Shown: piece after piece, positions 26,005 to 42,516 of the stretch
Layout: every line of letters starts with the position of its first letter
Position numbering within the stretch: the first letter of the stretch is position 1
From: Hyphomicrobium sp.
GTDB lineage: Bacteria; Pseudomonadota; Alphaproteobacteria; Rhizobiales; Hyphomicrobiaceae
Reading direction: 5' to 3'
Length of the DNA stretch: 64,000 nt
NCBI RefSeq assembly: GCF_003987855.1
Contig: NZ_RXIZ01000001.1
Coordinates: forward strand, 23,772 to 87,771
Position numbers and translations under genes: made by a program
Notes under the pieces: generated by a model
What the model was told of the DNA's origin: nothing
Seen by the model: only the letters and a program-made list of their open reading frames with translations
Database searches by the model: none

Positions 26005-26188
26005 CTGACTTCTTCGCCTTGGACTTCTTCGCAACGCGCATATTGTCGACGAGATTGGGATAGGGCCGTCCGGCTTTCTTTGCGGTCTTCTTAGCGCGCG
26101 CTTTCTGAGAAGCTGTCAAATGACGAGACTTGCCCGCTTTCGCTCTTGGATTTTTCTTATCCCAAGGTGCCTTTCGGGCGGTCGCCAT
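25994..26188 (-). CDS. small Lys/Ala-rich basic protein
   Basis: A 64-residue, very basic protein (APWDKKNPRAKAGKSRHL; AKKTAKKAGRPYPNLVDNM). The KAGRPYPNLVDNM block is, to my memory, conserved in small rhizobial proteins of unknown role; nucleic acid binding is a fair guess from charge. Its ATG overlaps the stop of the PPOX gene (TGATG), so it is the second gene of that operon. It converges on udgX with an 11-nt overlap. Confidence 0.72.
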   Translation of the reverse strand: MATARKAPWDKKNPRAKAGKSRHLTASQKARAKKTAKKAGRPYPNLVDNMRVAKKSKAKKSAKR

Positions 26189-26670
26189 CAGAACGTTACC
26201 TTCGCTACGTTGTCCTTGTAGTCCTGCTTCGGATCCGCGCCGAAAAGAAGCTTGATGCCCGCCAACAGGTTCGAGGCGTTGAGCCAGATTTCCGCGTGAT
26301 CGGGATCGAGCCGAACCAGAGCCAGCTTCGGATCATCTTTGCCGCCCTCGTACCAGGCTGCAATGAAGCTGTTCCACAGCGCATCGATCACCCGCCGGTC
26401 ATTATCGACTTGGATCTGTCCGTGAACTGCGGCGAAGAGGTCGTGCCCTTTCGATGTGAACGTCGCAACGGTGCGCTTTGGCTTGTCGAGCCGCTGCACC
26501 AGTTCGCTATCCCTCGAGGTGAAGAACCAGATAGGCCCGCCATCGTGTTCGATCTGTGCCGTTAAAGGGCGCGTATGGCTGTCGTCCTCACCACTGAGCC
26601 CGACCATCATGGTCATGTCGGACTTCAGCGTCTTCCAGAAGCGCGCTTCCAATTCCTGCGGTGTTGGCAT
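26188..26670 (-). CDS. pyridoxamine 5'-phosphate oxidase-like general stress protein
   Basis: A 160-residue split-barrel flavin-binding protein of the general stress protein 26 type. Typical blocks are HTRPLTAQIEHDGGPIWFFT near the N-terminus and WNSFIAAWYEGGKDDPKLALVR in the second half (quoted in part). These proteins bind FMN, and their reaction is usually unknown. A strong AGGAG ribosome site lies 9 nt before the ATG. The gene is first in an operon with the small basic protein, and a stress-type promoter is found just upstream. Confidence 0.85.
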   Translation of the reverse strand: MPTPQELEARFWKTLKSDMTMMVGLSGEDDSHTRPLTAQIEHDGGPIWFFTSRDSELVQRLDKPKRTVATFTSKGHDLFAAVHGQIQVDNDRRVIDALWNSFIAAWYEGGKDDPKLALVRLDPDHAEIWLNASNLLAGIKLLFGADPKQDYKDNVAKVTF

Positions 26671-26695: not shown

Positions 26696-26720
26696 AACCC
26701 GCAGTGCCTTGGACTGTTCC
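26696..26720 (-). promoter_or_regulatory. EcfG-type promoter (GGAAC, 16 nt, GGTT)
   Basis: On the minus strand a perfect -35 GGAAC is followed after 16 nt by GGTT, one base from CGTT. It is 26 nt upstream of the PPOX stress-protein gene, leaving a short leader with its AGGAG site. Confidence 0.55.
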
Positions 26721-26784: not shown

Positions 26785-28812
26785 TCACGGCTGATCAAGG
26801 ACGTGCCGCACCTTCGCGGCAAGCTGTTCGAGCGCGAAGGGTTTCCTCAAGAAATGCGAGGCTCCCAGTTGCGCGCCATTATGCAGATGCTCATCGCGCG
26901 CGTAGCCGCTGGTGAAGAGAATTTTGATTTCCGGGAAAAGTTGGTTGACGCGATCCGCAAGCTCGCGACCCGACATGTCGGGCATGACGAGATCCGTAAA
27001 GAGCAGGTTCGGCTTTTTACCCTCACCTATGACTTTGAGCGCCTCCATGCCATTCGCAGCCTGAAGCACCGTGTATCCAAGATCGCCCAGTGCATCGACC
27101 GCCATGAGTCGGACCCGATCCTCGTCTTCAACGACAAGTACGATTTCGCTCGGGCTCCCCACCGCCGCTTGTTTGCTTGGCGCTTTGGCGGCGATATCTT
27201 CACCGCCGCCATAGCGCGGCAAGAAAATTTTAACGCAGGTGCCTGCGTTCACCTCGGAAATGATCCTCACGTGTCCGCCCGATTGCCGGACAAAACCAAA
27301 GACCTGGCTTAATCCCAAGCCGGTCCCTTTACCCACGCCTTTGGTTGTGAAGAATGGATCGAACGCCTTCGCGATCACCTCGGGCGGCATGCCCGAGCCG
27401 GTATCGCTGACCGCGAGCATCACGTACTCACCAGGCGAGAATTCGTTACGTCGCGCATATTCGGCGTCGATCACGGCATTTTCCGTCTCGATCGTCAGCA
27501 CCCCGCCGCTCTCCATGGCATCGCGGGCATTGACGGCAAGGTTCAGAAGTGCGCTTTCGAGCTGGGTCGTATCGATCCGTGTCCGCCATAGACATTCATC
27601 GAGCGACGTGCGGATCTTGATGTTTTCGCCCAACGTCCGGCCAAGCAGGTCGGCCAGACGCGTGACGAGCTGGTTCGCATCGGTGGGCTCCGGCGTCAGG
27701 GGCTGCTGACGCGAAAACGCCAGAAGCCTTTGCGTGAGGTCCGCCGCACGCTTAGCGCTCTCCATAACGCCTTGCGTGTATTTCGAGATGTCTTTTTCCC
27801 CGCGAGCGACTTGGCGATCGATCAGCCCGAGCCCGGCCATCACGACCGCCAGCATATTGTTGAAGTCATGCGCGATCCCGCCGGTGAGCTGACCCAGCGC
27901 ATCCATCTTGTCGCGCTGATGCAGAAGCTCCTCGGCGCGGGCACGGTCTTCCATCTCCCTTTTCAGGAGATCGTTCGCAGTCTGAAGTTCCTGCGTCCGC
28001 TCGGCGACGCGAACCTCAAGGCTCGCGGCAAGCTCGTGCAACGCTCGTTCCGTCTCGAACTGCGAGGTTTGATCGCGCAGAATTTTCAGAAAGCCAGGGG
28101 CCGCGGGAGGCGATAGCCGGGTCATCACGCCATTGGCGAAGAAAAGCGAACCATCTTTCTTGATCTGCCAGCGCTTGTCGTCCGACCGGCCAGTTGCGCG
28201 AGCTTGCTCCCGTTCCTGCTCAGCCGCATCGGCGGCTCGATCTTCACTCGTGAAAATCAAGTTGATGTCTTGCCCGAGCGCTTCCGTCTGGGACCAACCG
28301 AAGATGGCTGTCGCGCCTTCATTCCAGCCTGATATCTTGCCTTTTTCATCAAGACGGATGATCGCGTAATCGATTGCACTGGCAAGAACGCCTTGCAGAT
28401 GCGCCTCGCTCGCGCGCAGAGCTTCTTCCGCGGTTCTGATGCGCAGCAATGCTCGTACGGAGGCAACGAGCTCGTTAGGCGCAATTGGCTGCGCAAGATA
28501 GGCGTCCGCGCCGCCATCGAGTCCCCGCACGCGGTCCCCTTCGGTAACGCGGGAAGCCGAAATCTGCAGGACAAAGATTTTCGGATAATCGTTTTTCAGA
28601 ATGCGGCAGACTTCCAGCCCGCTTATGTCGGGCAATCTTACATCGAGCAACACCAGGTCCGGTTGCTTCTCTCGTGTAAGTTCTATGGCTTCTTGCCCGT
28701 TTCGCGCCTCGATGATCTCGAAACCCGCATGGCGCAGTATTCGCGACTTCGTGTATCGGCCGACATCGTTGTCGTCCACGTTGAGAAGCAGCCTCGGCCC
28801 GCTATTCGGCAT
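26785..28812 (-). CDS. hybrid histidine kinase, REC-PAS-HisKA-HATPase-REC
   Basis: A 675-residue cytoplasmic kinase. The N-terminal receiver has its phosphorylation site at Asp57 (LVLLDVRLP). A PAS domain covers about 130-255, followed by a coiled coil (260-300). The kinase has His315 (GGIAHDFNN) and an ATPase domain with NARDAM and GTGLGLSQVFGF. The C-terminal receiver has Asp607 (LLFTDLVMPDMSG). There is no membrane segment. It is last in the stressosome operon; its ATG overlaps the previous stop (TGATG). The N-terminal receiver suggests that it takes a phosphate from another kinase, probably its neighbour. Its output partner is not in the operon. Confidence 0.93.
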   Translation of the reverse strand: MPNSGPRLLLNVDDNDVGRYTKSRILRHAGFEIIEARNGQEAIELTREKQPDLVLLDVRLPDISGLEVCRILKNDYPKIFVLQISASRVTEGDRVRGLDGGADAYLAQPIAPNELVASVRALLRIRTAEEALRASEAHLQGVLASAIDYAIIRLDEKGKISGWNEGATAIFGWSQTEALGQDINLIFTSEDRAADAAEQEREQARATGRSDDKRWQIKKDGSLFFANGVMTRLSPPAAPGFLKILRDQTSQFETERALHELAASLEVRVAERTQELQTANDLLKREMEDRARAEELLHQRDKMDALGQLTGGIAHDFNNMLAVVMAGLGLIDRQVARGEKDISKYTQGVMESAKRAADLTQRLLAFSRQQPLTPEPTDANQLVTRLADLLGRTLGENIKIRTSLDECLWRTRIDTTQLESALLNLAVNARDAMESGGVLTIETENAVIDAEYARRNEFSPGEYVMLAVSDTGSGMPPEVIAKAFDPFFTTKGVGKGTGLGLSQVFGFVRQSGGHVRIISEVNAGTCVKIFLPRYGGGEDIAAKAPSKQAAVGSPSEIVLVVEDEDRVRLMAVDALGDLGYTVLQAANGMEALKVIGEGKKPNLLFTDLVMPDMSGRELADRVNQLFPEIKILFTSGYARDEHLHNGAQLGASHFLRKPFALEQLAAKVRHVLDQP

Positions 28813-30623
28813 CAGGGGCTACTCTCGAGAACACGGTTTAATGCAGACGCGATGGTATCACGAGACAACCCGCGCTTCGTGAGGAAACCACGCGCCGCCG
28901 CAATGCGCTCATGCGACAACGTCTCGTAGTCGGCAGACGTGAGGAGCAGCACCGGCACCCTGCTCGTCTCAGGATCGGAAGAAAGATCGCTCAGCACCTG
29001 GTAGCCGTCGCGACGGGGCATTTGCAGATCCAGCACAATGACGTCGGGATGCAGATCTCGCGCCTTCACAACGCCTTCGGCGCCGTCAGGCGCTTCGATG
29101 ACGTTGTAAGCACTGTTGTGGCCAGCGATCATCTGGCGAAGCGCATACCGGAACGCAGCGTCATCATCGACAATGAGCACGGTGATCTGTCCCTGCTTCT
29201 GCAGTGGGCTCAATTGAGGAAAACGATCTCTTTCAACGTACGTTGCACCCTCATCTGCCTCTGGGCCAGCCGCCTCGGCAAGCTCCGGTATGTCTAAGGT
29301 AAATGTCGAGCCTTTTCCCACCTTACTCTCAAGTAGAATTCTTCCTCCCAGCAGATCAGCCAATTTACGGCACAGCGACAAGCCGAGGCCCGTCCCCTTT
29401 ACCATTCGCTGCGTCGGGCTATCGATTTGCGAGAATTCCTCGAAAATCCTCTCTCGATCGTTCGGCGCGATGCCGATCCCGGTATCGTTTACCGAAAACA
29501 GCAGATGCTTGGTTTCGGGGTCGCGCGAGACGCTGACGCGAACCTCGCCCTCAATGGTAAATTTCAGCGCATTCGCGACGAAATTGCGAATGATCTGAAC
29601 GAGCTTGCCCTCGTCTGAAGTAATCGAAACAACATCCGGTGGAGGATCTTCAAATACGAGTCGGACCTTATCGTCCCTCTGCAGAGGCTTCATCACCCCG
29701 CGCAAGCCGCCCAGCAGATCACGGGCCGTGAACGTCGAGACGTGAAGATCAAGCCGCCCCGCCTCGAGCTTCGCGATGTCGAGAAGGTCGTTGACCATCT
29801 CATACAGGCTTTCGGCCGAGCGCTTGATAAAGCTGACCTGCGTTTCCTGTTCTTCCGTCAGCTGCCCGTCGACGCGTTTGATAAGCAGATCCGACAGCGC
29901 GAGAATGGAATTCAAAGGCGTGCGAAACTCGTGGCTCATGTGCGACAGGAATCGCGTCTTTAGCTCGCTGGCTTGCTTGAGCTCGTCAGCTTTCTGCTCG
30001 AGCTCCCCATAGAGCGCCACAACTCCCCGATTGGTGTCTTCCAGCTCCCGGTTGAGACGGCCCAGCTCCTCCTGGCGATTGGTGATTTCATCGAGACTGA
30101 GCGCCAGCTCCTGGTTCTGCAGCGCCATGGCGGCATGCGGATCGCTCTCCGGCCGTTCCTTGGCCAACAAGGCAGCGATTTCTGCAAATCGCTCACGCGT
30201 CAACAACGCCTGGCGACGTGTGAAGGGTTTGCCGATCTCGACGACAGTGCCACCTTCTTTGCTCTCGACGCGGAACTTCTCCATCAGTCGCCGAGCGCCG
30301 GTTATGCCAATTCCAAGCCCGTGCGAGGAAGCGTATCGACCGTCCAGAATCTCTTGCAGGTTCTCGATACCAGGACCTTCGTCCTTGATCGTTATGTAGA
30401 GAATTTGAAGCTTGTCCTTCCCGGCATCCAATCGGAAGCTGGCGGTCCCCCGTCCGGCATACTCGAAGGCGTTGCGGGCAATCTCCGACACCGCAGTCGC
30501 AATGCGCGTCTGCTCTTGATTGTCGAAGCCGACGAGGTCTGCAATCCGCTTTGCCCGCTGGCGCACGGCCACGACATCGGACTGGCTGGTGATTTGCATC
30601 GACAGGATCGGCCAAGAGGTCAT
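28812..30623 (-). CDS. RsbT-like ATPase fused to hybrid histidine kinase and receiver
   Basis: 603 residues. Residues 1-130 form a GHKL ATPase of the RsbT/RsbW type (VSEIARNAFEYAGRG with Asn51; DEGPGI; GLGIGITGARRLMEKF). A linker and a coiled coil (about 165-225) lead to a histidine kinase with His231 (SHEFRTPLNS) and a second ATPase (GTGLGLSLCRKLADLL). The C-terminal receiver has Asp532 (VLDLQMPRRDG). The arrangement links serine-kinase-type partner switching with a histidine phosphorelay in one chain. It overlaps the SpoIIE-type gene by 4 nt (ATGA). Whether the first domain binds the stressosome is inference from the operon. Confidence 0.93.
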   Translation of the reverse strand: MTSWPILSMQITSQSDVVAVRQRAKRIADLVGFDNQEQTRIATAVSEIARNAFEYAGRGTASFRLDAGKDKLQILYITIKDEGPGIENLQEILDGRYASSHGLGIGITGARRLMEKFRVESKEGGTVVEIGKPFTRRQALLTRERFAEIAALLAKERPESDPHAAMALQNQELALSLDEITNRQEELGRLNRELEDTNRGVVALYGELEQKADELKQASELKTRFLSHMSHEFRTPLNSILALSDLLIKRVDGQLTEEQETQVSFIKRSAESLYEMVNDLLDIAKLEAGRLDLHVSTFTARDLLGGLRGVMKPLQRDDKVRLVFEDPPPDVVSITSDEGKLVQIIRNFVANALKFTIEGEVRVSVSRDPETKHLLFSVNDTGIGIAPNDRERIFEEFSQIDSPTQRMVKGTGLGLSLCRKLADLLGGRILLESKVGKGSTFTLDIPELAEAAGPEADEGATYVERDRFPQLSPLQKQGQITVLIVDDDAAFRYALRQMIAGHNSAYNVIEAPDGAEGVVKARDLHPDVIVLDLQMPRRDGYQVLSDLSSDPETSRVPVLLLTSADYETLSHERIAAARGFLTKRGLSRDTIASALNRVLESSP

Positions 30624-31639
30624 GATATAACCCCCTTGCAGACCAGAACGGTGGCATCGTCGCGTCCGCGCGTGAAGTCGCGATAGAGGACCGAGGCAAG
30701 CAGAATGGGAGCCCTCCCGATGAGACCGGGATAGGCGCTGGACTGCCAGCTTGTCCCAATTCCATCGGAGTGCATGACGATCATCGTATCTTCGGGACGG
30801 TCCATCGCGTATTGGAGCTGCTGAACGTTGCGGGCATTGTGACCGATTGTTCCATTGTACGACATCATCCGTCGCATATCGCCGTTACTCGAGCAGATCG
30901 CGCCAGAAATATTCCCCACGCCTGAATAAGTAACGCGCTTGGCCGCAGGCTCGACGCGCGCTACCGCAACTGCGCCGCCGCGGGTGGAGCGCAAACCCGC
31001 ATGGAGGCAACGAACGACCTCGGATGGATCTTCCTGCCAGTATTTGTCAAACAGACGCAAAGCTTCATTCGAGACCTTGGCAGCGTCCGGCCCATGGCCC
31101 AGACCGTCAATGACCATCAGAGTTTGAACACCGCCCTCGGCCCGCGCTGCCCATCCGTCGCCGCAGACTGACTCCCCGGGATAAGGCACGGAAACGCAAG
31201 CGGGTCTGGCATCCGATATTCCTAACCCCCTTTTTCCATTTTCCGGTTTGGCGTACAGCCGTGCGACGAGAACAGTGCCGCGGCCGGATTGGGAGAAGAT
31301 TTCGAAGCAATTCGACTGTCGCTTGATCGCGCCAAGACCGGCTCCAGCAGTTCCTGCCGTTGAAACCCCATCACGCAAAGCCGATTCCAGATCGGCGATC
31401 CCGCCACCTTTGTCGATCGCAATGACCTCTATTGCAGGTCCGCCTTGCTCATCCTCGACGATGCCGACGAGAATCTGTCCGCCTGTCCCGTGCTTCACGA
31501 GATTGGTCGAAAGCTCCGTGGCGACGATCGCCACGCGGCCGCCAGCTTCTTCGTCGAAGCCGTTACGTTGGGATAGCTCCACACAGGTCCTGCGTGCTTC
31601 GGCCACCTGACTGGCTTCCGTGACCGAGACGGCGATCAT
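30620..31639 (-). CDS. RsbT-like ATPase fused to SpoIIE-type PP2C phosphatase (RsbX-like)
   Basis: 339 residues from ATG 31639, 7 nt after the rsbT stop; a longer frame would run deep into rsbT. Residues 1-130 are a GHKL anti-sigma-type ATPase (ATELSTNLVKHGTGG; DKGGGI; AGAGLGAIKRQSNCFEIF). The rest (about 145-339) is a PP2C phosphatase of the SpoIIE/RsbX group, with metal ligands in CGDGWA (Asp161) and VIDGLGHGPDA (Asp178) and a late DDATVLV block. RsbX resets the stressosome by dephosphorylating RsbR and RsbS; that is the likely job here. Confidence 0.92.
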   Translation of the reverse strand: MIAVSVTEASQVAEARRTCVELSQRNGFDEEAGGRVAIVATELSTNLVKHGTGGQILVGIVEDEQGGPAIEVIAIDKGGGIADLESALRDGVSTAGTAGAGLGAIKRQSNCFEIFSQSGRGTVLVARLYAKPENGKRGLGISDARPACVSVPYPGESVCGDGWAARAEGGVQTLMVIDGLGHGPDAAKVSNEALRLFDKYWQEDPSEVVRCLHAGLRSTRGGAVAVARVEPAAKRVTYSGVGNISGAICSSNGDMRRMMSYNGTIGHNARNVQQLQYAMDRPEDTMIVMHSDGIGTSWQSSAYPGLIGRAPILLASVLYRDFTRGRDDATVLVCKGVIS

Positions 31640-31646
31640 TTTTTTC

Positions 31647-32051
31647 TCACTTCCACCGAACGATCGTAACGCGCGTCCCCTGCCCGGGGTTCGAAGTGAT
31701 GGAGAATTCGTTGGAGAGCCGCTTTGCTCCGCCAAGTCCAAGCCCAAGGCCGCCACCCGACGTGTAGCCATCGCTAAGCGCGCGCTCGATATCGGGAATG
31801 CCTGGCCCCTGATCCTCGAACGTCAGCCGTACTCCTCGCCGCCGGCCATCATCCACACACTCGATGAGCATGGTTCCTCCGCCGCCGTATTCCAGCGTGT
31901 TGCGTGCAAGCTCACTGGCCGCCGTGATGATCTTTGTCTGATCCACGAGGGAGAAGCCGGACTCTATCGCCCGGACGCGTACTTGTTGGCGCGCCCGGAC
32001 AACGTCATCGCCGCTTCTGATCTCGAAGACTTCACTCGTCGTAACGGTCAT
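31647..32051 (-). CDS. rsbT: RsbT serine kinase of the stressosome
   Basis: 134 residues from ATG 32051, chosen because GGGGAGAA sits 7 nt before it; the gene thereby overlaps rsbS by 20 nt. It is a GHKL-fold serine/threonine kinase with SELARNTLEYGGGG (N box), EDQGPGIPDIERAL and the glycine-rich GGGLGLGLGGAKRL. RsbT phosphorylates RsbS and RsbR and is then released to act on a target. In Bacillus the target is the phosphatase RsbU; there is no rsbU here, so the kinases downstream are candidate targets. Confidence 0.93.
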   Translation of the reverse strand: MTVTTSEVFEIRSGDDVVRARQQVRVRAIESGFSLVDQTKIITAASELARNTLEYGGGGTMLIECVDDGRRRGVRLTFEDQGPGIPDIERALSDGYTSGGGLGLGLGGAKRLSNEFSITSNPGQGTRVTIVRWK

Positions 32052-32433
32052 CGAGTTCTCCCCGACTGACCGCGTCGGCATCGATCCTCCGGCTGATCAG
32101 CGCCATGCCGCGCTCGACGTTGAGCGCAGTTTTCACCCCCGGGAGAGACAGTCCAAGTTCCACAAGCGTAATAGCCACAGCCGGGCGCATGCCGACCACA
32201 ACCGTCTCGGCATCGAGTACGCGCGAGACGGCTGCGATGTTGTCGAGCATGCGGCCGATGAAGGAATCGACGATCTCGAGCGCCGAAATGTCGATCAGAA
32301 CCCCTTTCGCGGCCGTGGCCGCGATCTTGGCTGTCAGATCTTCTTCGAGCGCTATGGCAAGGCGGTCGTGCATGTCGACCTGAATGGTAACCAGCAGCGC
32401 GCTACCAAGCTTCAGGATGGGGATGCGATCCAT
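32032..32433 (-). CDS. rsbS: RsbS, stressosome STAS scaffold protein
   Basis: A 133-residue single STAS-domain protein. The phosphorylatable serine is Ser57 in VDSFIGRML, the exact context of the RsbS site in Bacillus. RsbS binds RsbT in the unstressed state and, with RsbR, builds the large icosahedral stressosome. It lies 2 nt after rsbR and overlaps rsbT. The ISALEIVDSFIGR block and GMRPAVAITLVELG loop leave no doubt about the family. Confidence 0.94.
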   Translation of the reverse strand: MDRIPILKLGSALLVTIQVDMHDRLAIALEEDLTAKIAATAAKGVLIDISALEIVDSFIGRMLDNIAAVSRVLDAETVVVGMRPAVAITLVELGLSLPGVKTALNVERGMALISRRIDADAVSRGELDDRYDE

Positions 32434-32435
32434 CG

Positions 32436-33335
32436 TTAGCCGCGGTCCTCTGTTGAGGCGGCTCTCGATATCCGGGGTTGGCCGGCCTTCAGCGATACGA
32501 CGGTCTTGTTGAGACGCTGCAGCGCCAGCGCGAACGCATCGGCGAGGTTCGCTTTCGAAACAACGTTGAGTTCGACGCCGAGGTGCACCATCGTCTGCGC
32601 AATCTGCGGCCGAATTCCCGATATCACGCAGTCAGCACCCATGAGCCGGGCGGCCGCAACGGTCTTGAGAAGGTGCTGAGCGGTAAGCGTATCGACGGTG
32701 GGAACGCCCGTGATGTCGATGATCGCGATCTCAGCCGACTGATCGACGATTGTCTGAAGCAGGTTCTCCATGACCGTTTGCGTGCGCTCGCTATCGAGGG
32801 TGCCGATGATCGGAAGCGCCAATATGCCGTCCCAGAGCTTCACGACGGGCGTCGACAGTTCGGCAATTTCACGACTCTGGCGCGCGATGACCTCCTCGCG
32901 CGTCTTCGAATAGATCTCGATCGTGTACAGGCCAAGCTCGTCCAACAGAGCGGAAGTCTTCCAAATAAACGACGCTTTGTCGGTGACGCCGCCGGATTCC
33001 TGGTTGATGGCGTTGAACAGCGGTTGCTTGAGGGAGAAAACGAAGTTGGCCGTCTCGGTTGGCGTGAAACCCAGAATGGCGCGCGAACGCGAGACGTCCG
33101 CCAGCATCGATTTCAGGCCTTCGAAAGAACTCGCGGAGCGGTCGACAGAGCCGTCAGACTGCATCGCTTGCTTTAGCTGGGACAGAAACCCACGACATTG
33201 CGTCTCGAGTTCCGCTTCCTTAATCCGTCCGGTTTGCAATACGCCGGAAGACTTCAACAGTCGTAGCCACTCCGTTAGTATCTCTTGTTCATGTGCAGTG
33301 AACAGCTGATTTAGGCCACCTGCCGATGGGGACAT
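32436..33335 (-). CDS. rsbR: RsbR-type stressosome sensor (RsbRD-like N-terminus plus STAS)
   Basis: 299 residues. The N-terminal all-helical domain (about 5-150) resembles the RsbRD N-terminal domain and is the probable sensor; there is no haem or flavin motif that I can see. The C-terminal STAS domain (about 160-275) holds Thr216 in VPTVDTLTAQH, matching the phosphorylated threonine of RsbR, and Thr248 in GIRPQIAQTMV as a second candidate. The ATG has an AAGG site. It is first in a six-gene operon with an EcfG-type promoter about 110 nt upstream. The signal sensed is unknown. Confidence 0.93.
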   Translation of the reverse strand: MSPSAGGLNQLFTAHEQEILTEWLRLLKSSGVLQTGRIKEAELETQCRGFLSQLKQAMQSDGSVDRSASSFEGLKSMLADVSRSRAILGFTPTETANFVFSLKQPLFNAINQESGGVTDKASFIWKTSALLDELGLYTIEIYSKTREEVIARQSREIAELSTPVVKLWDGILALPIIGTLDSERTQTVMENLLQTIVDQSAEIAIIDITGVPTVDTLTAQHLLKTVAAARLMGADCVISGIRPQIAQTMVHLGVELNVVSKANLADAFALALQRLNKTVVSLKAGQPRISRAASTEDRG

Positions 33336-33446
33336 GATAAGTACCTTATTGTGGAATGCCTGTAGCGAGGCTTGGCCAAAAACGAAAAGACGGGATAGCG
33401 CGTCATCGCAACACGGTTAACCCCCACTTGAACGCCGACAGCGCAA

Positions 33447-33471
33447 AACGCACGCACAGAGGTTTTGTTCC
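33447..33471 (-). promoter_or_regulatory. perfect EcfG-type promoter of the stressosome operon
   Basis: On the minus strand GGAAC is followed by exactly 16 nt and CGTT, the full alphaproteobacterial general-stress consensus. Transcription would start near 33440, giving rsbR a leader of about 105 nt. Confidence 0.78.
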
Positions 33472-33579
33472 GCAACGGTGAAGAAAAAAATTTGTGCGAG
33501 GTATCAATCTTTCCAGGCAACTTCGGAGTTCTGGCCCGGCGTGTAAGTACGCTGGGATTGTCGTGGGGTGCGGCCTGAG

Positions 33580-36500
33580 ATGAGCGCGCAAGAATGTGCG
33601 GATTTTTCAGCCGGCGGCGTCTTCCTCGGCGAGGGCGAACTTGCGCAACGCATGAGGCAATTCGATTGGTCCAGTACCGAACTTGGATCACCCGACACTT
33701 GGCCTGACAGTCTCAAATCTGTCATCCGCATGCTCCTCACCACCCGTTATCAGATGTGGATGGCCTGGGGGCCTAGCCTGACCTTCTTTTGCAATGACGC
33801 TTACCGGCCAACTCTTGGCGTCAAGTTCCCATGGGCGCTCGGGCAGCCCGCCTCGAAAGTTTGGTCCGAAATCTGGCCTGACATCGATCCGCTCATCCAA
33901 CACGTGATGACCACTGGTGAAGCTACCTACTCGGAAAAGATGCTTCTGTTCCTCGAACGCAGTGGCTTTGCCGAAGAAACGTATCACACCTTTTCGTACA
34001 GTCCGCTCTTCGGCGATAATGGCAAAATCGCCGGCATGCTCTGCGTGGTCGTGGAGGAAACCGAACGCGTCATCAGCGAGCGCCGTCTCGCAACCCTCAG
34101 CGAACTCGCATCCAAGAGCAGCACCGCGAAGACCGAACCCGAATTGTTCAAGAACATATGCTCCAGCCTCGCTGACAATAGCCGCGACCTACCCTTCACC
34201 CTCACCTACGTCTTCAGTGGAGATGAAGCACATCTCGCTTGCGCGACAGGCATCGAAGCTGGCCATCCTGCGGCGCCGCCCATACTGACGATGCAAAATT
34301 CGCCTTGGCCGCTTTCCGAAGCCTATGCCAACGGCGAAATTTTTCTCGATGAAGCCCTCGCGGAACGCCACGCCAATCTCCCCTCTCCATATTGGAGACG
34401 CTCATCCCGGCAGGCGCTAATATCTCCTATTTCCTCTTCAGGCGGGAAAGGCGGAATTGCCGGCTTTTTTATAGTTGGCCTTAATCCCTTCCGTCCTGTC
34501 GATGAGAACTACCGCTCCTTCATCGAACTTGTGTCAGGCCAGATCTCCGCTGCCCTCGCCAGCGTAAGATCCTACGAAGCGGAACGAAAGCGCGCCGAAG
34601 CTCTCGCCGAAATCGATCGAGCCAAGACGAATTTCTTTTCCAATGTCAGTCACGAATTCCGCACGCCGCTGACGTTGATGTTGGGCCCGCTTGAGGAGTT
34701 GCTTGCCCAAGCCGCCCCAGAGGCGAAACAACAGATCGAACTCGCTCATCGGAATGGATTAAGGCTTCTTAGGCTCGTCAACGCGCTCCTCGATTTTTCC
34801 CGCATCGAAGCGGGCCGCACACAGGCCCGATTTGCCCCGACGGATATCGCCGAGACCACGGCTGAAATAGCCTCGGAATTTCGTTCCGCATTCGAGCGAG
34901 CGGGGCTTTATCTCAAGGTCGAGAGTGAGCCCCTACCCGAGCCGGTCTTCGTCGATGCCGATATGTGGGAGAAGGTTGTTCTGAACCTGCTCTCCAACGC
35001 ATTCAAATACACCTTCGTCGGAGGCGCCACCGTCAGAATCCGCCGCGCCCCCAACGCGGAGGCCGTCGATATTGAAGTGCGGGATACCGGCACGGGCATT
35101 GCCCCTCACCAGCTTCCAAAATTGTTCGAGCGCTTTCATCGGATCGAGGGTGCTCGTAGCAGAAGCATCGAAGGCACCGGCATCGGCCTTGCACTGGTTC
35201 AGGAACTCGTGAAGCTTCATGGCGGCTCGATATCTGTTTCCAGTGAGCCTGAGAACGGCACCGCATTTACGATCCGCCTCCCATTCGGCTCTGACCACCT
35301 GCCTCAGAACAGCGTCTTCGCTGAGAGCCTGCCCAAAAGCCCGCAAATTGGCCGCGCCTATATGGAGGAAGCGCTGAGATGGCTTCCCGATGGCGAAGCC
35401 GACGAAAACATGCTCGAAATTGTCAATGCGTCGCCCATTGAGCAGCGGGACGGGATCGTTCACCGTGTCATCCTTGCCGACGACAATGGTGACATGCGCG
35501 ATTACGTCAGCCGCTTGCTTGAGACGCGCGGCTTCCGCGTAGATGCCTTCCCTAACGGCGTCGAGGCGCTCGAGGCGGCGCGCGCACAAAGGCCGGACCT
35601 CATCCTTTCCGACGTCATGATGCCTGGAATGGACGGCTTCGCGCTCCTGCACGCCATTCGCGCCGACTCGGCGTTGGCTGGCGTTCCCGTGATTTTGCTA
35701 TCAGCGAGAGCAGGAGAGGAAGCGCGGATCGAAGGCCTTGAAGAAGGCGCCGACGATTATCTCACTAAGCCATTCACCGCCCGAGAGCTCATTGCTCGCG
35801 TCACAGCGAACATCCAGCTTGCCCAAATGCGCCGTGACGTCGAGCGCGAGTTGCTCCGCAATGAGACCAAATTGCAGATGACGCAGGATCGGCTCGAACT
35901 CGCGCTGTCGAGCGGCCGCATCACTGTTTTTGAAACGGACGTCCAAGCAGATCGCGCAATTATGCTTGGGCCGCTCACGTCCGCTTTCGGTGTTGGCGAA
36001 ATAGCCGCATCCAAGGGCCTACAAGTCAACGCCTACCTCCCAGCGATCCATGAGGATGATAGGGCGCGGGTCGATCAAGCCGTTCGCCAGGCAATCGAGA
36101 CGGGTTCCAACCTGGAGGAAGAATATCGCGTCGGCCCTGAAGACGATCTGCGGCACGTCGCTGTGCGTGGCAAAGTCATACAAGGCCCCGATGGCCCGAG
36201 ACTTGTCGGAGCCATCATCGACATCACTCAGGAAAAATCCGTCGAACGCGAGTTGCGCAATCAGAAGCAGGCTCTTGAGATCCTCAACAAGTCGTCATCC
36301 ACGGTTGCGGCCGATATTGAGCTGGAGCAAATCGTCCAAACGATCACGGAAGCAGGCCTCGCTCTAAGTGCCGCCGAATTCGGCGCATTTTTTTACAACG
36401 TTCTCAATGATGCAGGCGAGAGCTACATGCTTTACACGCTCGCCGGCGTTCCAAAAGATTCATTTGACGACTTCCCGATGCCCCGCAACACGTCCGTGTT

Positions 36501-38034
36501 TGCGCCAACGTTCAACGGCGAAGGCATCGTCCGATCAGACGACATAACGAAAGATCCGCGTTACGGTAAGAACGACCCTCATAATGGCATGCCGAACGGA
36601 CATCTTCCCGTTCGCAGCTACCTCGCGAGCCCGGTGCGTTCGCGTTCCGGAGAGGTGTTGGGCGGGCTCTTCTTTGGTCATTCCAGCCCGGCCATGTTCT
36701 CGTCCCGCACCGAAGATCTCATCGGGACACTCGCTGCTCAGGCCGCCGTGGCGATCGACAACGCGCGGCTCTTCCAAGCCTCCGAACGCGAATTGCATCA
36801 GCGCCGGAAAGCCGAGCGCGAACTCTCCGAACTCAACGCCGGGCTGGAGAAGAGAGTCAATGAGGAAGTTGGTAATCGACTACAAGCCGAGGCTGCACTG
36901 CGCCAAGCTCAAAAAATGGAAGCTGTCGGGCAGCTCACTGGCGGCGTAGCGCACGACTTCAACAATTTGCTGACAGTCATCCTCGGTGGTCTCGATACGC
37001 TCCGCCGAGGCGGCGTTGCCGACAATCCGCGATGGTCACGGGCGCTCGCAACGTCCATGCAGGGAGTGCAGCGCGCGGCAACGTTGACGGCGCGGCTTCT
37101 CGCCTTTTCACGCAGGCAGCCCCTCGATCCAAAGCCCCTTGACCTCAACACAGTGGTCCGCGACAGCACCGATCTGCTCCATCGCACAATGGGCGAACTA
37201 GTGGAGATCGAGGGCGTCCTTGCCCCTCGCCTCTGGCTCGTCGAGGCGGATCAAAATCAGTTGGAAACGGCGATTGTCAATCTGGCGATCAACGCTCGCG
37301 ATGCCATGCCGTCGGGCGGCAAGATGACGATCGAAACCGGCAACGTTTACCTCGATGAGGCCTACGCGGCGACCGACGCGGAGGTGGTGCCGGGCCAGTA
37401 TGTGATGATCGCTGTCAGCGACAATGGCGAAGGCATGTCGGAGGAGGTGCTCGCCCGCGCGTTCGAGCCCTTCTTCACAACCAAGGAGACCGGCAAGGGC
37501 ACGGGCCTCGGTCTCAGCATGATCTACGGCTTCGTCAAGCAATCCGGCGGCCACATCACGATCTATAGCGAGGAAAATCACGGCACGACCGTGAAGATGT
37601 ATTTCCCTCGCTACACTGGCACCCTGCCCCTTCCTTCTCCGACACAGGAAACCAAAACACCTCAAGGCAGCAAGGACGAATGCATTCTCGTTGTCGAGGA
37701 TAACGCCGAGGTGCGCGCCAATAGCGTGATGATCTTGAGCGAGTTGGGCTACTCGATCCTTGAAGCCGCCGAGGCCGAAGCTGCACTCGAAATCATTTCG
37801 GGCCCCCAGAAGATCGATTTGCTGTTCACCGACGTGGTGCTGCCAGGAAAAAGCGGCCGGCAACTGAGTGATGAAGCGCGCAAGCTCCGCCCCGACCTCA
37901 AGGTGCTTTTCACGACCGGCTATTCCCGGAATGCTCTCGTCCACCAGGGGCGGCTGGATACGGGCGTCAACCTCATCTCTAAGCCCTTCACGTTCGAACA
38001 ACTCGCGGCGCGCATACGTGCAATCCTCGATTGA
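33580..38034 (+). CDS. large double hybrid histidine kinase
   Basis: About 1484 residues in two kinase modules, without membrane segments. Order: PAS-like (15-160), GAF (165-340), HisKA with His358 (SHEFRTPLT), HATPase (GTGIGLALVQELVKLHGG), receiver with Asp678 (LILSDVMMPGMDG), PAS (775-885), GAF (900-1060), coiled coil, second HisKA with His1125 (GGVAHDFNN), HATPase (GTGLGLSMIYGFVKQSGG) and a terminal receiver with Asp1418 (LLFTDVVLPGKSG). I chose ATG 33580 after TGGGGTG; a GTG 12 nt earlier is possible. It is divergent from the stressosome operon, so both may share regulation. Two complete His-Asp relays in one chain suggest signal integration. Confidence 0.92.
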   Translation: MSAQECADFSAGGVFLGEGELAQRMRQFDWSSTELGSPDTWPDSLKSVIRMLLTTRYQMWMAWGPSLTFFCNDAYRPTLGVKFPWALGQPASKVWSEIWPDIDPLIQHVMTTGEATYSEKMLLFLERSGFAEETYHTFSYSPLFGDNGKIAGMLCVVVEETERVISERRLATLSELASKSSTAKTEPELFKNICSSLADNSRDLPFTLTYVFSGDEAHLACATGIEAGHPAAPPILTMQNSPWPLSEAYANGEIFLDEALAERHANLPSPYWRRSSRQALISPISSSGGKGGIAGFFIVGLNPFRPVDENYRSFIELVSGQISAALASVRSYEAERKRAEALAEIDRAKTNFFSNVSHEFRTPLTLMLGPLEELLAQAAPEAKQQIELAHRNGLRLLRLVNALLDFSRIEAGRTQARFAPTDIAETTAEIASEFRSAFERAGLYLKVESEPLPEPVFVDADMWEKVVLNLLSNAFKYTFVGGATVRIRRAPNAEAVDIEVRDTGTGIAPHQLPKLFERFHRIEGARSRSIEGTGIGLALVQELVKLHGGSISVSSEPENGTAFTIRLPFGSDHLPQNSVFAESLPKSPQIGRAYMEEALRWLPDGEADENMLEIVNASPIEQRDGIVHRVILADDNGDMRDYVSRLLETRGFRVDAFPNGVEALEAARAQRPDLILSDVMMPGMDGFALLHAIRADSALAGVPVILLSARAGEEARIEGLEEGADDYLTKPFTARELIARVTANIQLAQMRRDVERELLRNETKLQMTQDRLELALSSGRITVFETDVQADRAIMLGPLTSAFGVGEIAASKGLQVNAYLPAIHEDDRARVDQAVRQAIETGSNLEEEYRVGPEDDLRHVAVRGKVIQGPDGPRLVGAIIDITQEKSVERELRNQKQALEILNKSSSTVAADIELEQIVQTITEAGLALSAAEFGAFFYNVLNDAGESYMLYTLAGVPKDSFDDFPMPRNTSVFAPTFNGEGIVRSDDITKDPRYGKNDPHNGMPNGHLPVRSYLASPVRSRSGEVLGGLFFGHSSPAMFSSRTEDLIGTLAAQAAVAIDNARLFQASERELHQRRKAERELSELNAGLEKRVNEEVGNRLQAEAALRQAQKMEAVGQLTGGVAHDFNNLLTVILGGLDTLRRGGVADNPRWSRALATSMQGVQRAATLTARLLAFSRRQPLDPKPLDLNTVVRDSTDLLHRTMGELVEIEGVLAPRLWLVEADQNQLETAIVNLAINARDAMPSGGKMTIETGNVYLDEAYAATDAEVVPGQYVMIAVSDNGEGMSEEVLARAFEPFFTTKETGKGTGLGLSMIYGFVKQSGGHITIYSEENHGTTVKMYFPRYTGTLPLPSPTQETKTPQGSKDECILVVEDNAEVRANSVMILSELGYSILEAAEAEAALEIISGPQKIDLLFTDVVLPGKSGRQLSDEARKLRPDLKVLFTTGYSRNALVHQGRLDTGVNLISKPFTFEQLAARIRAILD

Positions 38035-38674: not shown

Positions 38675-39061
38675 CTAGGCGGCCTTTCCGAGCACCACTC
38701 CCAACGCCTCCGACAGACTTTGCTGATCGTAGGGCTTGGCGACGCAAACGGCGTCGACGGGCTCGAAGTCGTTCCGCCGATCCAAATTATAGCCACTCGC
38801 AAAGATGAAGGGCCGGCCCCTCTTCTTCAGCATGTCGGCGAGCGGAAAACTCGTCACGCCATTGAGATTGACGTCGAGGATCGCCAGATCGAAATCGTTG
38901 CGCTCGATCCGCACGACAGCCTCATCGAAGGTGCCGGCAACCTGAACGTCGCCAGCCTCCAGCCCTCGAAGCATATCCTCAATGTCGAGCGCTATGAGAT
39001 ATTCGTCTTCGACGACAAGGACTTTCTTGCCGGCGAGAGAGAACGGTTGCTGCTCATTCAA
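38675..39061 (-). CDS. single-domain response regulator (FAT-GUY-like)
   Basis: 128 residues from a TTG at 39061, whose last bases overlap the stop of the kinase gene (TTGA), with GAGGTG about 5 nt upstream; an ATG at 39082 is the alternative. It is a lone receiver with Asp63 (AILDVNLNG) and FIFASGYN plus KP(YD), close to the FAT-GUY single-domain regulators that work with HWE kinases. In other alphaproteobacteria such regulators feed the PhyR general stress pathway. The overlap with the HWE kinase makes a direct kinase-regulator pair likely. Confidence 0.85.
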   Translation of the reverse strand: MNEQQPFSLAGKKVLVVEDEYLIALDIEDMLRGLEAGDVQVAGTFDEAVVRIERNDFDLAILDVNLNGVTSFPLADMLKKRGRPFIFASGYNLDRRNDFEPVDAVCVAKPYDQQSLSEALGVVLGKAA

Positions 39062-42000
39062 AACGGCACCTCGAGTGTACATTTTACACCATCCTGTTCG
39101 AGCGTGTAGGTGCATTTCCCGCCCAGATCGTGGGCGACGGCATTCTTGATCAACCGCGTGCCAAAACTCTGCCTCGTGTTCTCTGTCTTTTCTATCGGCA
39201 CCCCGGTTTCCCACCAACTGATCGTCAGCTGTCGCCCTGAGGCGGTCAGCATGATCGCCCATTCCACACGCAAGCGGCCAGATTCGTGCGCGATGGCCCC
39301 GTATTTGGCGGCGTTAGTCGCAAGTTCATGGAACGTCATTGTCAGCGTCAACGCGTGCTTTGGGGGAAGGGCAACCGGCGGACCTGACATCTCGATGCGA
39401 TCCCGATGATCGAACGGGCGCAGTTCCGTATTAAGGATGTCCATCAGCGAGACTTCTCGCCAGTCCTTCGACGTCAACAGGTGGTGGGTCGCCGCCAATG
39501 CCCCGACGCGTCGCCTCAGCGTGTCGATAATATCGGGCACAACCTTGCCGCTGGACGCCGTTTGATTGATGACGGAAGAAACAGTGGCAAGGGTATTCTT
39601 CACCCGATGCTGAAGCTCGTCCATCAGACGCCTCAGCTCTCTTTCGAGAACGCGGACCTCCGTTACGTCTTTGACGATGATGCCCACTGCGGTGACGCGG
39701 TCGTCCTCGAGATAGGGGTAGCTGTCGACGAGGAAGTCGCGATATTCGTCTTCTTCGACGCGGAGGCTGACATCGAGGTCCGGAACGCTTTTGCCCGTTT
39801 CGAAGACCTCCTCGATGGGGCGGCTCAGGCGCTCGGCCAAACGCGGCGTCATAACGTCGAGCGAGCGCCCAAGATGATCCTCGATCGTTGCGCCATTCAA
39901 GTCGGCGAACAGCTGATTGATTTTCAAGAATCTTCTGTTTCGGTCGACAAGCGCCATCCCAACGGTCGCGGTCTGGTATAGCGTCTCGATCTCATGACTG
40001 CTGCGGCGTGCGATCTCGATGTTCTTGGCAAGTTCGAATTGAGCCTGACGAATTTTTGTGACGTCGTTGAATACCAGGATGACGCCGTCAATGGTTTGCG
40101 AGACGTTCCGATAGGGCAGCGCGCGCAGGACGAACTGCTCCGTCCCCTCGTCGACGGCAAGCTCTTCCTCGACGACTTGCCCACTATCCAGAACGCGCCT
40201 GGTAAGACTTTCGAGCTGTTTAAGGTCTGCTCGCGATACCACGTCCGAGAATAGCCGCCCCTTATCCTGTTCCTGGAAACGAAACAGCCGCCGAACCGCG
40301 GGCGTGAAGCTGCGAATGCGCAGCTTCTTGTCGAGGAAGATCGTCGGAATCTGCGTACTCTCGATGAAGTTCTGAAGATCGCTATTCGCGTTGCCCAGCT
40401 GATCGACCTTGTTCTTCAGCTCTTCATTGACCGTCGCGAGCTCTTCGTTTGTCGATTGCAGCTCCTCGTTCATCGACATCATTTCTTCGTTGGAACTCTT
40501 CAGCTCCTCGTTCGAAGTTTCCAATTCTTCGACGGTGGTTCGCAGCTTTGTTTTCGTCTCGCCGAGTTCGTCCTCTAGCTCCTTGATGCGCTGGTCGTCC
40601 GAATAGCCATCGGCATTGGCTTCTAAGTCCCCATCCAATTCGCGCGCTCCGCCTGGAGCATCGCGAAACACGAGAAGCAGGTGGCCGTTGCTGAGCCGCT
40701 CGGCGCAGACGTCGACGAGAACTGCCTCTTCGTCTCCGTCCATCCTGACGTCGTGCTTGACCGTGCGCTGTCCAGTCCGACGAGCCGTATCCAGGACCGA
40801 CCGGACAGCGGATCGCAGACCCCGCCGCGTCAGATCAACGATGCGGTTGCTCGGCGCGCCCGGAGCAAATTCGAGATATTTGCCGGTTCGCGACGAAACA
40901 TATGTAACGCTATTTCCGGAATCGACGACGACATGCGCGGGCGCATACCGCTCGAGAACACGGCGCGCGATTTCTTCGCTCTGCTCCACCTGATTAAGTT
41001 CTGGACGCACCGGTCGCGTGGTGTGCGGATGAACTTGCAGGGGCATAGTCACCGACTGGCGTGAGGATCCTCTACGCCGATAGATCTTGGCGCTCAACTC
41101 GACCGTCTCAAAGAGATCGTTTCTCGTCGCGATGTTTTCCGCGGAGCCGAGAAACAGCCAACCGTCCTTCTTGAGCGCGTAGTGAAAGACCGGAATGAGC
41201 CGCTGCTGCAAGTTGCTATTGAGATAGATCAGCAGGTTGCGGCAAACGATCAAATCGCAGCGCGAGAACGGCGGATCTTTGATCAGGTTGTGATTTGAAA
41301 CGCGAACCATGTCTCGTATTGGCTGCGACAGGACATAGTCGTCTTCATTCGAATAGAAGTAGCGGTCGAGGAGTTCGATCGGCACTTCGCGCACTGCCGA
41401 GTGCGGATATCGGGCCGCTCTCGCTTTTTGCAGCATCGGCTCATCGATATCGGTGGCGAAAATCTGAACGTGGGGGTGCTCCTTCTCGCGGGAGAGAACT
41501 TCCGCGATGAGGATTGCGAGACTATAGGCCTCCTCGCCGCTGGAGCAGCCGGGCGTCCAAATACGGACGGTGTCAGAGGCGCCTTTGCCCTTCAAAATTC
41601 CGGGGATGACCTCGCGCCGTAAAAAGTCGAACGCTTCAGCATCTCGGAAGAAGCAAGTGACGTTGATCAGCAGATCTCGAAAGAGCAGCTCGGGTTCTTC
41701 CGATCCTTCCTTCAGAAGCGCGATATAGTCGGCGCCGTTCGACGCGCCCACCACCTGCATGCGGCGCTGAACGCGACGAAGCATGGTGCTGCTCTTGTAT
41801 TGACTGAAATCGTGGCCGAGCCTGCTTCTGACCTCCTCGCACACCTGCGAAAGAAAATCATCGATGTCGGGGAGCTTTAAAGATTCCTGCCCGCGATCGA
41901 AATAGTCGCGAATGGCCGCTGGCATCTCATCGACCCGCAGCACTTTATCAACGAGACCCGTCGCAACGGCATTCTTTGGCATCCCGTCGTACTTGGCCGT

Positions 42001-42516
42001 TTCCGGCTCCTGCACGATGGTGAGCCCGCCCGCTTCCTTGACGGCGCGAAGGCCCTCACTGCCGTCACCCCCCGTTCCGGAAAGCACCACGCACGCCGCG
42101 TTTGGCCCCTGATCGATGGCCAAGCTGCGAAAAAACACGTCGATGGGACGGCGGAATCCTCGCGGCTCGGAGAAGTCGGACAGCCGAAGCTCGGCCTTCT
42201 CGACGATCAAGCTGGCGTTCGGAGGGATCAGATAGACGTTATTGGGCTCTATCGGCATTCCGTCAGAAACCTGACGAACCTGCATTTCGGTGCGGCGGCT
42301 CAGAAGCTCCGCGAGCATGCTTTCGTGGTTGGGATCAAGGTGTTGGACCAGGACGTAGGCGTATCCCGAATCCGCCGGTACGGCCGCGAGGAGGTTCTGG
42401 AAGGCCTCTAGACCACCCGCCGAGGCGCCGACGCCGACGACCGGACAGGGCGCAGGATGCGCCCCAATACCCGGCTTATCGGGCGAAATGTTTCGGTCAT
42501 GAAGTTCTTCAGACAA
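39058..42516 (-). CDS. CheB-CheR-PAS-HWE histidine kinase fusion
   Basis: About 1152 residues from a TTG at 42516 (GGTGGA before it); an ATG at 42660 would add 48 residues of non-family sequence. Order: CheB methylesterase (Ser32 in GASAGGLEA, His59, Asp151 in GTGGDGSEG), CheR methyltransferase (WTPGCSSGEEAYSLA), a long Glu/Asn-rich coiled coil (EELETSNEELKSSNEEMMSM), PAS domains, then an HWE kinase with His970 (HRVKNTLATV), FHELATNAAKYGA and the WWE motif. There is no chemotaxis operon nearby. Such fusions are thought to sense stress; both enzymatic heads appear to keep catalytic residues. It is coupled to the lone receiver. Confidence 0.92.
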   Translation of the reverse strand: MSEELHDRNISPDKPGIGAHPAPCPVVGVGASAGGLEAFQNLLAAVPADSGYAYVLVQHLDPNHESMLAELLSRRTEMQVRQVSDGMPIEPNNVYLIPPNASLIVEKAELRLSDFSEPRGFRRPIDVFFRSLAIDQGPNAACVVLSGTGGDGSEGLRAVKEAGGLTIVQEPETAKYDGMPKNAVATGLVDKVLRVDEMPAAIRDYFDRGQESLKLPDIDDFLSQVCEEVRSRLGHDFSQYKSSTMLRRVQRRMQVVGASNGADYIALLKEGSEEPELLFRDLLINVTCFFRDAEAFDFLRREVIPGILKGKGASDTVRIWTPGCSSGEEAYSLAILIAEVLSREKEHPHVQIFATDIDEPMLQKARAARYPHSAVREVPIELLDRYFYSNEDDYVLSQPIRDMVRVSNHNLIKDPPFSRCDLIVCRNLLIYLNSNLQQRLIPVFHYALKKDGWLFLGSAENIATRNDLFETVELSAKIYRRRGSSRQSVTMPLQVHPHTTRPVRPELNQVEQSEEIARRVLERYAPAHVVVDSGNSVTYVSSRTGKYLEFAPGAPSNRIVDLTRRGLRSAVRSVLDTARRTGQRTVKHDVRMDGDEEAVLVDVCAERLSNGHLLLVFRDAPGGARELDGDLEANADGYSDDQRIKELEDELGETKTKLRTTVEELETSNEELKSSNEEMMSMNEELQSTNEELATVNEELKNKVDQLGNANSDLQNFIESTQIPTIFLDKKLRIRSFTPAVRRLFRFQEQDKGRLFSDVVSRADLKQLESLTRRVLDSGQVVEEELAVDEGTEQFVLRALPYRNVSQTIDGVILVFNDVTKIRQAQFELAKNIEIARRSSHEIETLYQTATVGMALVDRNRRFLKINQLFADLNGATIEDHLGRSLDVMTPRLAERLSRPIEEVFETGKSVPDLDVSLRVEEDEYRDFLVDSYPYLEDDRVTAVGIIVKDVTEVRVLERELRRLMDELQHRVKNTLATVSSVINQTASSGKVVPDIIDTLRRRVGALAATHHLLTSKDWREVSLMDILNTELRPFDHRDRIEMSGPPVALPPKHALTLTMTFHELATNAAKYGAIAHESGRLRVEWAIMLTASGRQLTISWWETGVPIEKTENTRQSFGTRLIKNAVAHDLGGKCTYTLEQDGVKCTLEVPF

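Follow-up and report, generated by a model that had tools for sequence, protein, structure and literature searches.

A predicted stressosome operon of Hyphomicrobium with RsbT-type domains on an RsbX-like phosphatase and a hybrid histidine kinase

A 64,000-nucleotide (nt) stretch of the genome of Hyphomicrobium sp. (assembly GCF_003987855.1, contig NZ_RXIZ01000001.1, positions 23,772 to 87,771; hereafter the window) carries a run of six co-directional genes on the minus strand, from 33335 down to 26785. These genes encode RsbR, RsbS and RsbT, a phosphatase with an RsbT-like N-terminal half (Tx-PP2C; the half is called Tx), a hybrid histidine kinase that also begins with an RsbT-type domain (H1; the domain is called Th), and a second kinase, H2 (Table 1). 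The RsbT-type ATPase occurs three times in this one operon: free, fused to a phosphatase and fused to a kinase. We propose that the three copies share the labour of a stressosome that relays its signal to H1 and H2, a model to which, taken as a whole, we give an even chance.

As expected of an RsbRST module, RsbR (sensor plus STAS), RsbS (a single STAS domain) and the GHKL kinase RsbT are encoded next to each other. The predicted phosphorylation sites are Ser57 of RsbS (Ser in 89 of 94 sequences, Thr in four, Gly in one) and Thr216 and Thr248 of RsbR (Thr in 88 of 91, Ser in the other three, and Thr in 89 of 91, respectively). The operon encodes no RsbU, RsbV, RsbW or SigB, and a Pfam scan found RsbU_N in none of its six proteins. 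A first-pass annotation, made from the nucleotide sequence alone, had already described rsbR, rsbS and rsbT followed by an ATPase/SpoIIE fusion and two hybrid kinases, had placed His231, Asp532 and Asn51 in H1 and Asp57 in H2, and had remarked on the lack of rsbU or a sigB-like target; all six genes with their domains, the four residues and this lack were confirmed. The overlaps of 1-20 nt that it gave for the gene junctions were found, with later start codons, at three of them (rsbS/rsbT, 20 nt; Tx-PP2C/H1, 4 nt; H1/H2, 1 nt), but rsbR/rsbS and rsbT/Tx-PP2C are separated by gaps of 2 and 7 nt.

The gene order is conserved far beyond Hyphomicrobium. The main locus set was collected with RsbT as the query and comprises the best 80 of at least 204 relatives among 594 stretches, so that it leans towards close kin of this RsbT; two same-order loci reached via H1 (L034, L035) bring it to 82, and domains in these loci were called with profiles built for this analysis. 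Of the 82 loci, 66, from eight phyla, have RsbR, RsbS, RsbT, the fusion phosphatase (T-PP2C) and a kinase with Th one after the other on a single strand. The order was found in 28/28 loci of Alphaproteobacteria (including L059 and L073, labelled only 'Proteobacteria bacterium'), 20/23 of Cyanobacteria, 8/9 of Acidobacteria, 4/7 of Planctomycetes, 2/2 of Chloroflexi, 1/2 of Deltaproteobacteria/Myxococcota and in the single loci of Gammaproteobacteria, Bacillota and Actinobacteria, and in none of the six betaproteobacterial and two Gemmatimonadota loci; contig ends account for some of the misses, and L071 and L123 have their last two genes on the opposite strand. Both halves of T-PP2C share a single open reading frame (ORF) in 82/82 loci, and the kinase has Th in 71, lacks it in eight and is out of view in three. 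Because the order is so widely conserved, the stressosome genes appear to be coupled to the kinases and not placed beside them by chance, and chance or a gene-calling artefact as the source of the operon was ruled out. The gene-order survey that the first-pass annotation had suggested also showed that the double ATPase fusions, which had seemed to be what stands out here, are not peculiar to this genome.

Two further samples did not set out from close kin of this RsbT. RsbS matches were obtained in 14/385 class-level genomes, ten of which encode T-PP2C and three a single-domain phosphatase, while in G117 the second RsbT-like domain and the phosphatase are encoded by separate genes; Th joined to a kinase or to the linker was found in 8/14, two of them cut by contig ends. 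An RsbT match at E 1e-8 occurs in 124/348 Bacillota genomes, many with scores in the range expected for RsbW and SpoIIAB. Among 34 Bacillota stretches, mostly around the stronger RsbT matches, our own profiles detected a clear T-PP2C in six and a Th-kinase in two (L190, L193), in whose kinases Pfam did not recognise HATPase_c_2. Within the taxonomic order of the window, H1 was found at E 1e-120 in 3/397 genomes, its own included, a figure that may be an undercount with three candidates scored per genome. The complete six-gene cassette also lies on megaplasmid MP1 of D. radiodurans R1, an organism of laboratory use (DR_RS15570-DR_RS15595; L224, 3131-8935); there its annotation speaks only of STAS and ATP-binding proteins and an anti-sigma regulatory factor, and it ends with a REC-histidine kinase of 411 amino acids (aa), and a plasmid of Sphingomonas aliaeris carries the cassette without H2. 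Methylobacterium platani and Methylobacterium sp. J-070 each have two copies on different contigs (L102/L138 and L122/L136).

Table 1. Coordinates of the stressosome operon and its elements in the window (position 1 is the first letter of the window).
Feature	Position	Strand	Description
rsbR	32436..33335	-	RsbRD_N sensor domain + STAS (Pfam)
rsbS	32032..32433	-	lone STAS domain (Pfam)
rsbT	31647..32051	-	134 aa; likely start 32051, ORF open from 32081
Tx-PP2C	30620..31639	-	RsbT-like ATPase + RsbX-like phosphatase, 339 aa; likely start 31639, ORF open from 31771
H1	28812..30623	-	hybrid histidine kinase, 603 aa: Th (HATPase_c_2)-linker-HisKA-HATPase_c-REC (Pfam)
Th (H1 residues 1-135)	30219..30623	-	RsbT-type ATPase domain; one clade in both trees
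H1 helical linker (residues 136-215)	29979..30218	-	conserved; between Th and the dimerisation helix
H2	26785..28812	-	kinase, 675 aa: REC-PAS-HisKA-HATPase_c-REC (Pfam)
EcfG-type promoter-like motif	33447..33471	-	GGAAC-N16-CGTT, 112-136 nt upstream of rsbR

Phylogenetic trees place Th within the RsbT family. In a tree of 154 domains, which rests on few columns and contains several long branches, Tx forms one clade (53 rows, support 100/99) and so does Th (43 rows, 99/93), and the free RsbT sequences need two changes, with L151 apart. In a second tree of 101 rows, rooted with RsbW and calculated without the long-branched Th of L105, the bootstrap had not settled; here the Th clade (19 rows, 100/99) sits within a group supported by 95/92 (next fork 91/95) that also includes RsbT of SigB-type gene orders, and Tx (28 rows, 94/67) falls outside this group. 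Cassette RsbT groups together with the RsbT from SigB-type gene orders. Since Tx and Th each form a clade, each fusion looks like a single old event. Six Bacillota loci (L211, L213, L216, L217, L220, L221) encode T-PP2C proteins of about 320 aa with a weakly matching T domain; the three of these included in the tree lie on a long branch of their own and may stem from an independent fusion.

The phosphatase half of Tx-PP2C is closest in sequence to the stressosome phosphatase of Moorella thermoacetica (3zt9, 2.3e-13) and to RsbX (3w40, 3.7e-10). A structural model (mean predicted local distance difference test score, pLDDT, 93.3) retrieved the same two folds as best matches, with template modelling (TM) scores by target of 0.87 and 0.83, and its N-terminal half matched SpoIIAB chains (TM 0.75-0.77). 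We take 3zt9 to be the MtX of Quin et al. 2012, with which the title of the PDB entry agrees; it corresponds to the phosphatase half only. The PP2C residues Asp178, Asp292 and Asp328 are each conserved in 94/94 sequences. The protein thus resembles RsbX in its nearest structures and conserved aspartates, but RsbX is a single-domain protein and the N-terminal RsbT-like domain is additional; we therefore call it RsbX-like and not RsbX. An RsbU-like output was considered and rejected: the N-terminal RsbU_N of RsbU-type phosphatases was not detected in Tx-PP2C, although the positive controls L198 and L205 scored 106.9 and 101.2 bits, and the nearest structures are 3zt9 and RsbX. Because of the closeness to these two structures, the SpoIIE half is more likely an eraser than an output, and we read Tx-PP2C as a presumably docked eraser. 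In two loci whose kinase lacks Th, T-PP2C is in frame with the kinase (L121, 9430-11382; L130, 9366-11768), which would thereby have a T domain in cis; split frames, possibly sequencing errors, occur in L130 and L115, and the fusion in L130 may be such an error.

The three RsbT-type domains differ in how strictly their residues are kept. Among domains that matched more than 75% of the analysis profiles, the N-box Glu47 and Asn51 and the G1-box Asp80 of RsbT are present in 96/96 sequences each and their counterparts in Tx in 92/92, whereas Th has the Glu in 76/77, the Asn in 72/77 and the Asp in 68/77. At least one catalytic residue is altered in 11/77 Th; three cases are exchanges of Asp for Glu only (L062, L064, L085), and the eight non-conservative changes are found in Planctomycetes, a cyanobacterium, Archangium, Heliobacterium and alphaproteobacteria. 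Mean column entropies, compared over the 77 loci that hold all three domains and expressed relative to RsbT, are 0.86 for helix 1 of Th, 2.15 for helix 2 with the N-box, 3.12 for the G1 box, 2.04 for the ATP lid, 1.55 for helix 4 and 1.49 for the C-terminal strands; the values for Tx are 1.10, 2.98, 2.54, 1.41, 1.99 and 1.16 in the same order. Thus, with the exception of helix 1, Th is relaxed almost throughout, the ATP box most strongly. Asp16, Arg21, Arg40, Ala44 and Arg50 of Th each have a rounded frequency of 1.00. Arg21 in helix 1, at frequencies of 0.99 in RsbT and 1.00 in Tx and Th, aligns with Arg20 of SpoIIAB, a residue that presumably touches the STAS partner. This pattern of conservation favours docking over catalysis, and we read Th as a probable docking module and not as an essential kinase. 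Loss of catalytic residues in relatives had been named in the first-pass annotation as telling against its reading; such changes do occur in Th and in none of the RsbT or Tx sequences, and speak against an essential kinase activity of Th, not against docking.

Th might instead be an active serine kinase on STAS proteins, which would make H1 a double kinase with mutual control of its serine and histidine kinase activities. This idea draws on the catalytic residues that most Th retain; the 11 altered domains, eight of them changed non-conservatively while RsbT and Tx are intact throughout, make it rather improbable. Because helix 2 is relaxed as well and three of the 11 changes are conservative, we rate this alternative somewhat higher, and docking somewhat lower, than we otherwise would.

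A further residue bears on the question of which RsbT-type domain carries the signal. Across 77 loci, at least 95% of the cassette RsbT and 100% of Tx have retained Asp94, compared with 3% of Th. In the five RsbT of SigB-type gene orders, a set defined by gene order with RsbU_N confirmed for two, the aligned residue is an Asp as well, at position 92 in four and at 90 in the other, and Asp92 of B. subtilis RsbT contacts the linker of RsbU according to the part of PMC12143880 drawn on here. It looks as though Th has lost the need to hold a linker in trans. A simple reading of this position is complicated by Bacillota, where only 15/34 RsbT have Asp at the aligned place. The same observations could mean that, as in B. 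subtilis, the signal travels with free RsbT, which would activate H1 by binding its linker in trans, with Th serving only to build the dimer or in regulation; the existence of loci without Th fits such a scheme. It is unlikely in our view: the Bacillota counts make the Asp no sure mark of linker binding, and Th, one clade held in 71/82 loci, asks for a function of its own. Furthermore, of the 31 Pfam families of 65 Th-kinases, the 25 shown do not include the RsbT receptor RsbU_N, so that at most one member could have it, whereas HATPase_c_2 was found in 62/65. Kinases beside single-domain or split phosphatases (n = 5) carry RsbU_N in L148, L149 and L202 (32.9, 26.7 and 36.8 bits; cut-off 25.5), and not in L150 and L151. 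Judged by domain content, the RsbT-type domain occupies the receptor's place on the Th-kinases.

H1 has the features of a hybrid histidine kinase, with a HisKA histidine (His231, 75/75), HATPase_c and a C-terminal REC aspartate (Asp532, 61/61). In an alignment of 65 sequences, the window included, its linker shows many near-invariant residues at 169-208, and in a structural model (mean pLDDT 88.3, predicted TM score 0.52, with unsure domain placement) a single helix, 162-248, links the linker to the kinase. The acceptor in the window would be H2, with its receiver Asp57 and with His315 and Asp607: of the 85 loci with a recognised H1, 62 have a REC at the start of the next gene and three are cut by the contig end, a count that leaves aside 11 further loci in which H1 was not recognised. 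The proposal of the first-pass annotation that RsbT or the fused ATPase passes the stressosome signal to histidine kinases is borne out as far as a gene order too widespread for chance and these receivers go; its ATPase/SpoIIE fusion, however, is more likely an eraser than an output. A reverse flow, in which the kinases sense and set the stressosome activity through Th, could be imagined from the PAS domain and N-terminal receiver of H2. It is very improbable, as 67 of the 68 Th loci that show their RsbR have the RsbRD_N sensor on it, and the product of the gene next to H1 in most cases begins with a receiver, that is, an acceptor.

In Kitasatospora (L111) the gene after H1 encodes REC-PP2C, and STAS and sigma-70 genes lie within about 4 kb, with a PLD-like gene between; in Anaerolineae, a REC-REC-GAF-HD_5 protein follows directly (L128) or after a single-REC protein (L112). 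H2 could be a CckA paralogue that feeds ChpT. The genome encodes one ChpT-type HPTransfase; the best NCBIfam models for H2, PRK13557 and CckA, score far below their cut-offs, and within the genome H2 most closely resembles the C-terminal part of a neighbouring 1488-aa kinase (48% identity to H2 residues 255-674).

From what the sequence offers (genes, domains, residues, gene order and the kinship of Th with RsbT), we infer core phosphorylation, docking, release, phosphotransfer, output and EcfG dependence as follows. RsbR, as the sensor, and RsbS would build the STAS core, and free RsbT would be the trigger kinase for RsbS Ser57 and RsbR Thr216/Thr248. Tx would deliver the RsbX-like phosphatase to these STAS sites and so reset them, while Th would dock H1 onto the core or compete with RsbT for it. 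Upon core phosphorylation H1 may be released or reoriented, and the helical linker would then switch His231. The phosphate could pass to Asp532 of H1 and/or to Asp57 of H2, and via His315/Asp607 of H2 to a target encoded elsewhere. In this lineage EcfG probably transcribes the operon. More generally, though only tentatively, the stressosome of many bacteria may be a kinase docking platform: an RsbT-type domain, probably a pseudokinase in some lineages, would tether H1 to the STAS core, and the trigger RsbT, the eraser T-RsbX and the reporter T-kinase would compete for shared sites on one megadalton particle, with kinases held there in a way similar to chemoreceptor arrays.

Several observations weigh against this division of labour. 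A kinase without recognised Th follows T-PP2C in eight loci (six of Betaproteobacteria, two of Schlesneria), in G577 and in the Bacillota loci L191, L192 and L206; neither RsbU_N nor HATPase_c_2 was found on the Th-less kinases of L088, L125, L126, L132, L137, L143 (G577), L191, L192 and L206. Coupling can therefore work without Th. Th also exceeds RsbT in variability at helix 2 with the N-box, the ATP lid, helix 4 and the C-terminal strands, and so helix 1 alone distinguishes the docking face. As most Th retain the catalytic residues and the exceptions include mere exchanges of Asp for Glu, Th may have kinase activity, and the retained Asp94 suggests that a linker in trans is still a target of RsbT. 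The gene after H1 has no N-terminal REC in 20/85 loci (14 of Methylobacteriaceae plus L071, L105, L115, L130, L144 and L145), and the operon of the window contains no gene for a DNA-binding or enzymatic output.

The general kind of system, a stressosome with a two-component output, is already known. Stressosome modules beside two-component genes, which the first-pass annotation had mentioned for some proteobacteria, are published, some with RsbU_N kinases (PMC9237108, PMC12143880; these and the other cited papers are drawn on in part). The RSTX modules with downstream phosphorelays of V. vulnificus, Ruegeria and others share with the window the order rsbR, rsbS, rsbT, RsbX-like phosphatase and then kinase/receiver genes, and the V. 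vulnificus module likewise is without sigB; these modules have, however, a globin-coupled RsbR and a single-domain RsbX, whereas here RsbR is of the RsbRD type and an RsbT-like domain is found on phosphatase and kinase (PMC9237108). In the same account, RsbU_N was not found on most signalling proteins downstream of stressosome modules, and V. vulnificus RsbT gave no positive interaction with the two-component protein encoded next to it (PMC9237108). The RsbU_N kinases in rsbT operons also combine an RsbT-related N-terminal input with a helical linker (PMC12143880, citing Heinz et al. 2022), but they carry the RsbT receptor and H1 carries the RsbT-type domain itself. From the RsbRST-RsbU-SigB pathway of B. 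subtilis with its RsbX, the operon retains the core proteins, the phosphorylation sites and the catalytic residues of RsbT; it differs in the lack of RsbU, RsbV, RsbW and SigB, with a histidine kinase as the apparent output. RsbK of B. cereus is likewise a hybrid kinase with a signalling helix and a C-terminal REC, and its partner RsbY is a REC-PP2C like the next gene in Kitasatospora; RsbK, however, is a transmembrane sensor kinase and forms a pair with the methyltransferase RsbM, and the portion of the paper used mentions no stressosome or RsbT domain (PMC4574943). In Moorella, the stressosome has a diguanylate cyclase as its target, according to the part consulted of PMC4976288. The new part is, as far as domain assignments go, the RsbT-type domain built into both the putative eraser and the kinase; in a literature search no title or abstract opening named RsbT-fused kinases, and we make no claim to priority for the arrangement. 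For stressosomes without RsbU or SigB, an RsbT-domain kinase offers a concrete route by which the signal may be passed on, and points to the domain concerned.

The EcfG-type motif upstream of rsbR had been described as a perfect promoter through which the general stress response would raise its own sensor. The motif is present, but GGAAC-N16-CGTT has 94 matches in the genome compared with 80 for the reversed control pattern, and by itself it is weak evidence; as proof it was rejected and replaced by a comparison among relatives. This comparison covered the loci with RsbR in view (three were excluded), some with a short upstream stretch or one measured from an over-long ORF: the 400 bp before the rsbR ORF contain GGAAC-N16/17-CGTT in 5/42 alphaproteobacterial loci (the window, L059, L060, L035 and L076) and in 0/51 others. 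Random 400-bp windows from the same loci averaged 0.15 loci with the motif and never exceeded three in 3001 draws, and 0/3000 base shuffles reached five motif loci. The window and its two nearest relatives, L059 and L060, share the motif with unrelated spacers, yet it was found in 0/14 Methylobacterium loci over the same upstream distance; EcfG control would therefore be a trait of the lineage and not of the cassette. In Sphingomonas melonis such motifs cluster in the first 100 bp, a zone slightly exceeded by the motif of the window, and the EcfG-regulated genes include those for Ku and 'general stress protein 26' (PMC6599016, in the part used). A Ku gene and the pyridoxamine-oxidase-like gene of the window bear EcfG-type motifs, although 3/100 shuffles also reached the looser of the patterns applied. 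The genome encodes two NepR, the partner of EcfG. What makes EcfG control of the operon plausible is the recurrence of the motif in relatives. A relay link back to EcfG was not found, and H1 and H2 are both of the HisKA type, whereas the kinases of the alphaproteobacterial general stress response are HWE/HisKA2 according to the section drawn on of PMC12148442, so that of the earlier claim only the promoter stands as plausible.

Directly downstream of the operon lies the pyridoxamine-oxidase-like gene (26188-26670, minus strand), with its own GGAAC-N17-GTT motif at 26696-26720 (minus strand), 26 nt upstream of the start; genes of this kind go by the name 'general stress protein 26'. Two Ku genes and an MdoG gene occupy 47562-51322, with divergent EcfG-type motifs between MdoG and the first Ku (49271-49295, minus strand; 49296-49320, plus strand). 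The genome has one RsbRD_N gene, that of the operon. The 1488-aa double hybrid kinase (33568-38034, plus strand) is divergent from rsbR, and a relative adjoins the cassette in L060. A CheB-CheR-PAS-HWE kinase fusion is also encoded near the stressosome operon (39058-42660, minus strand).

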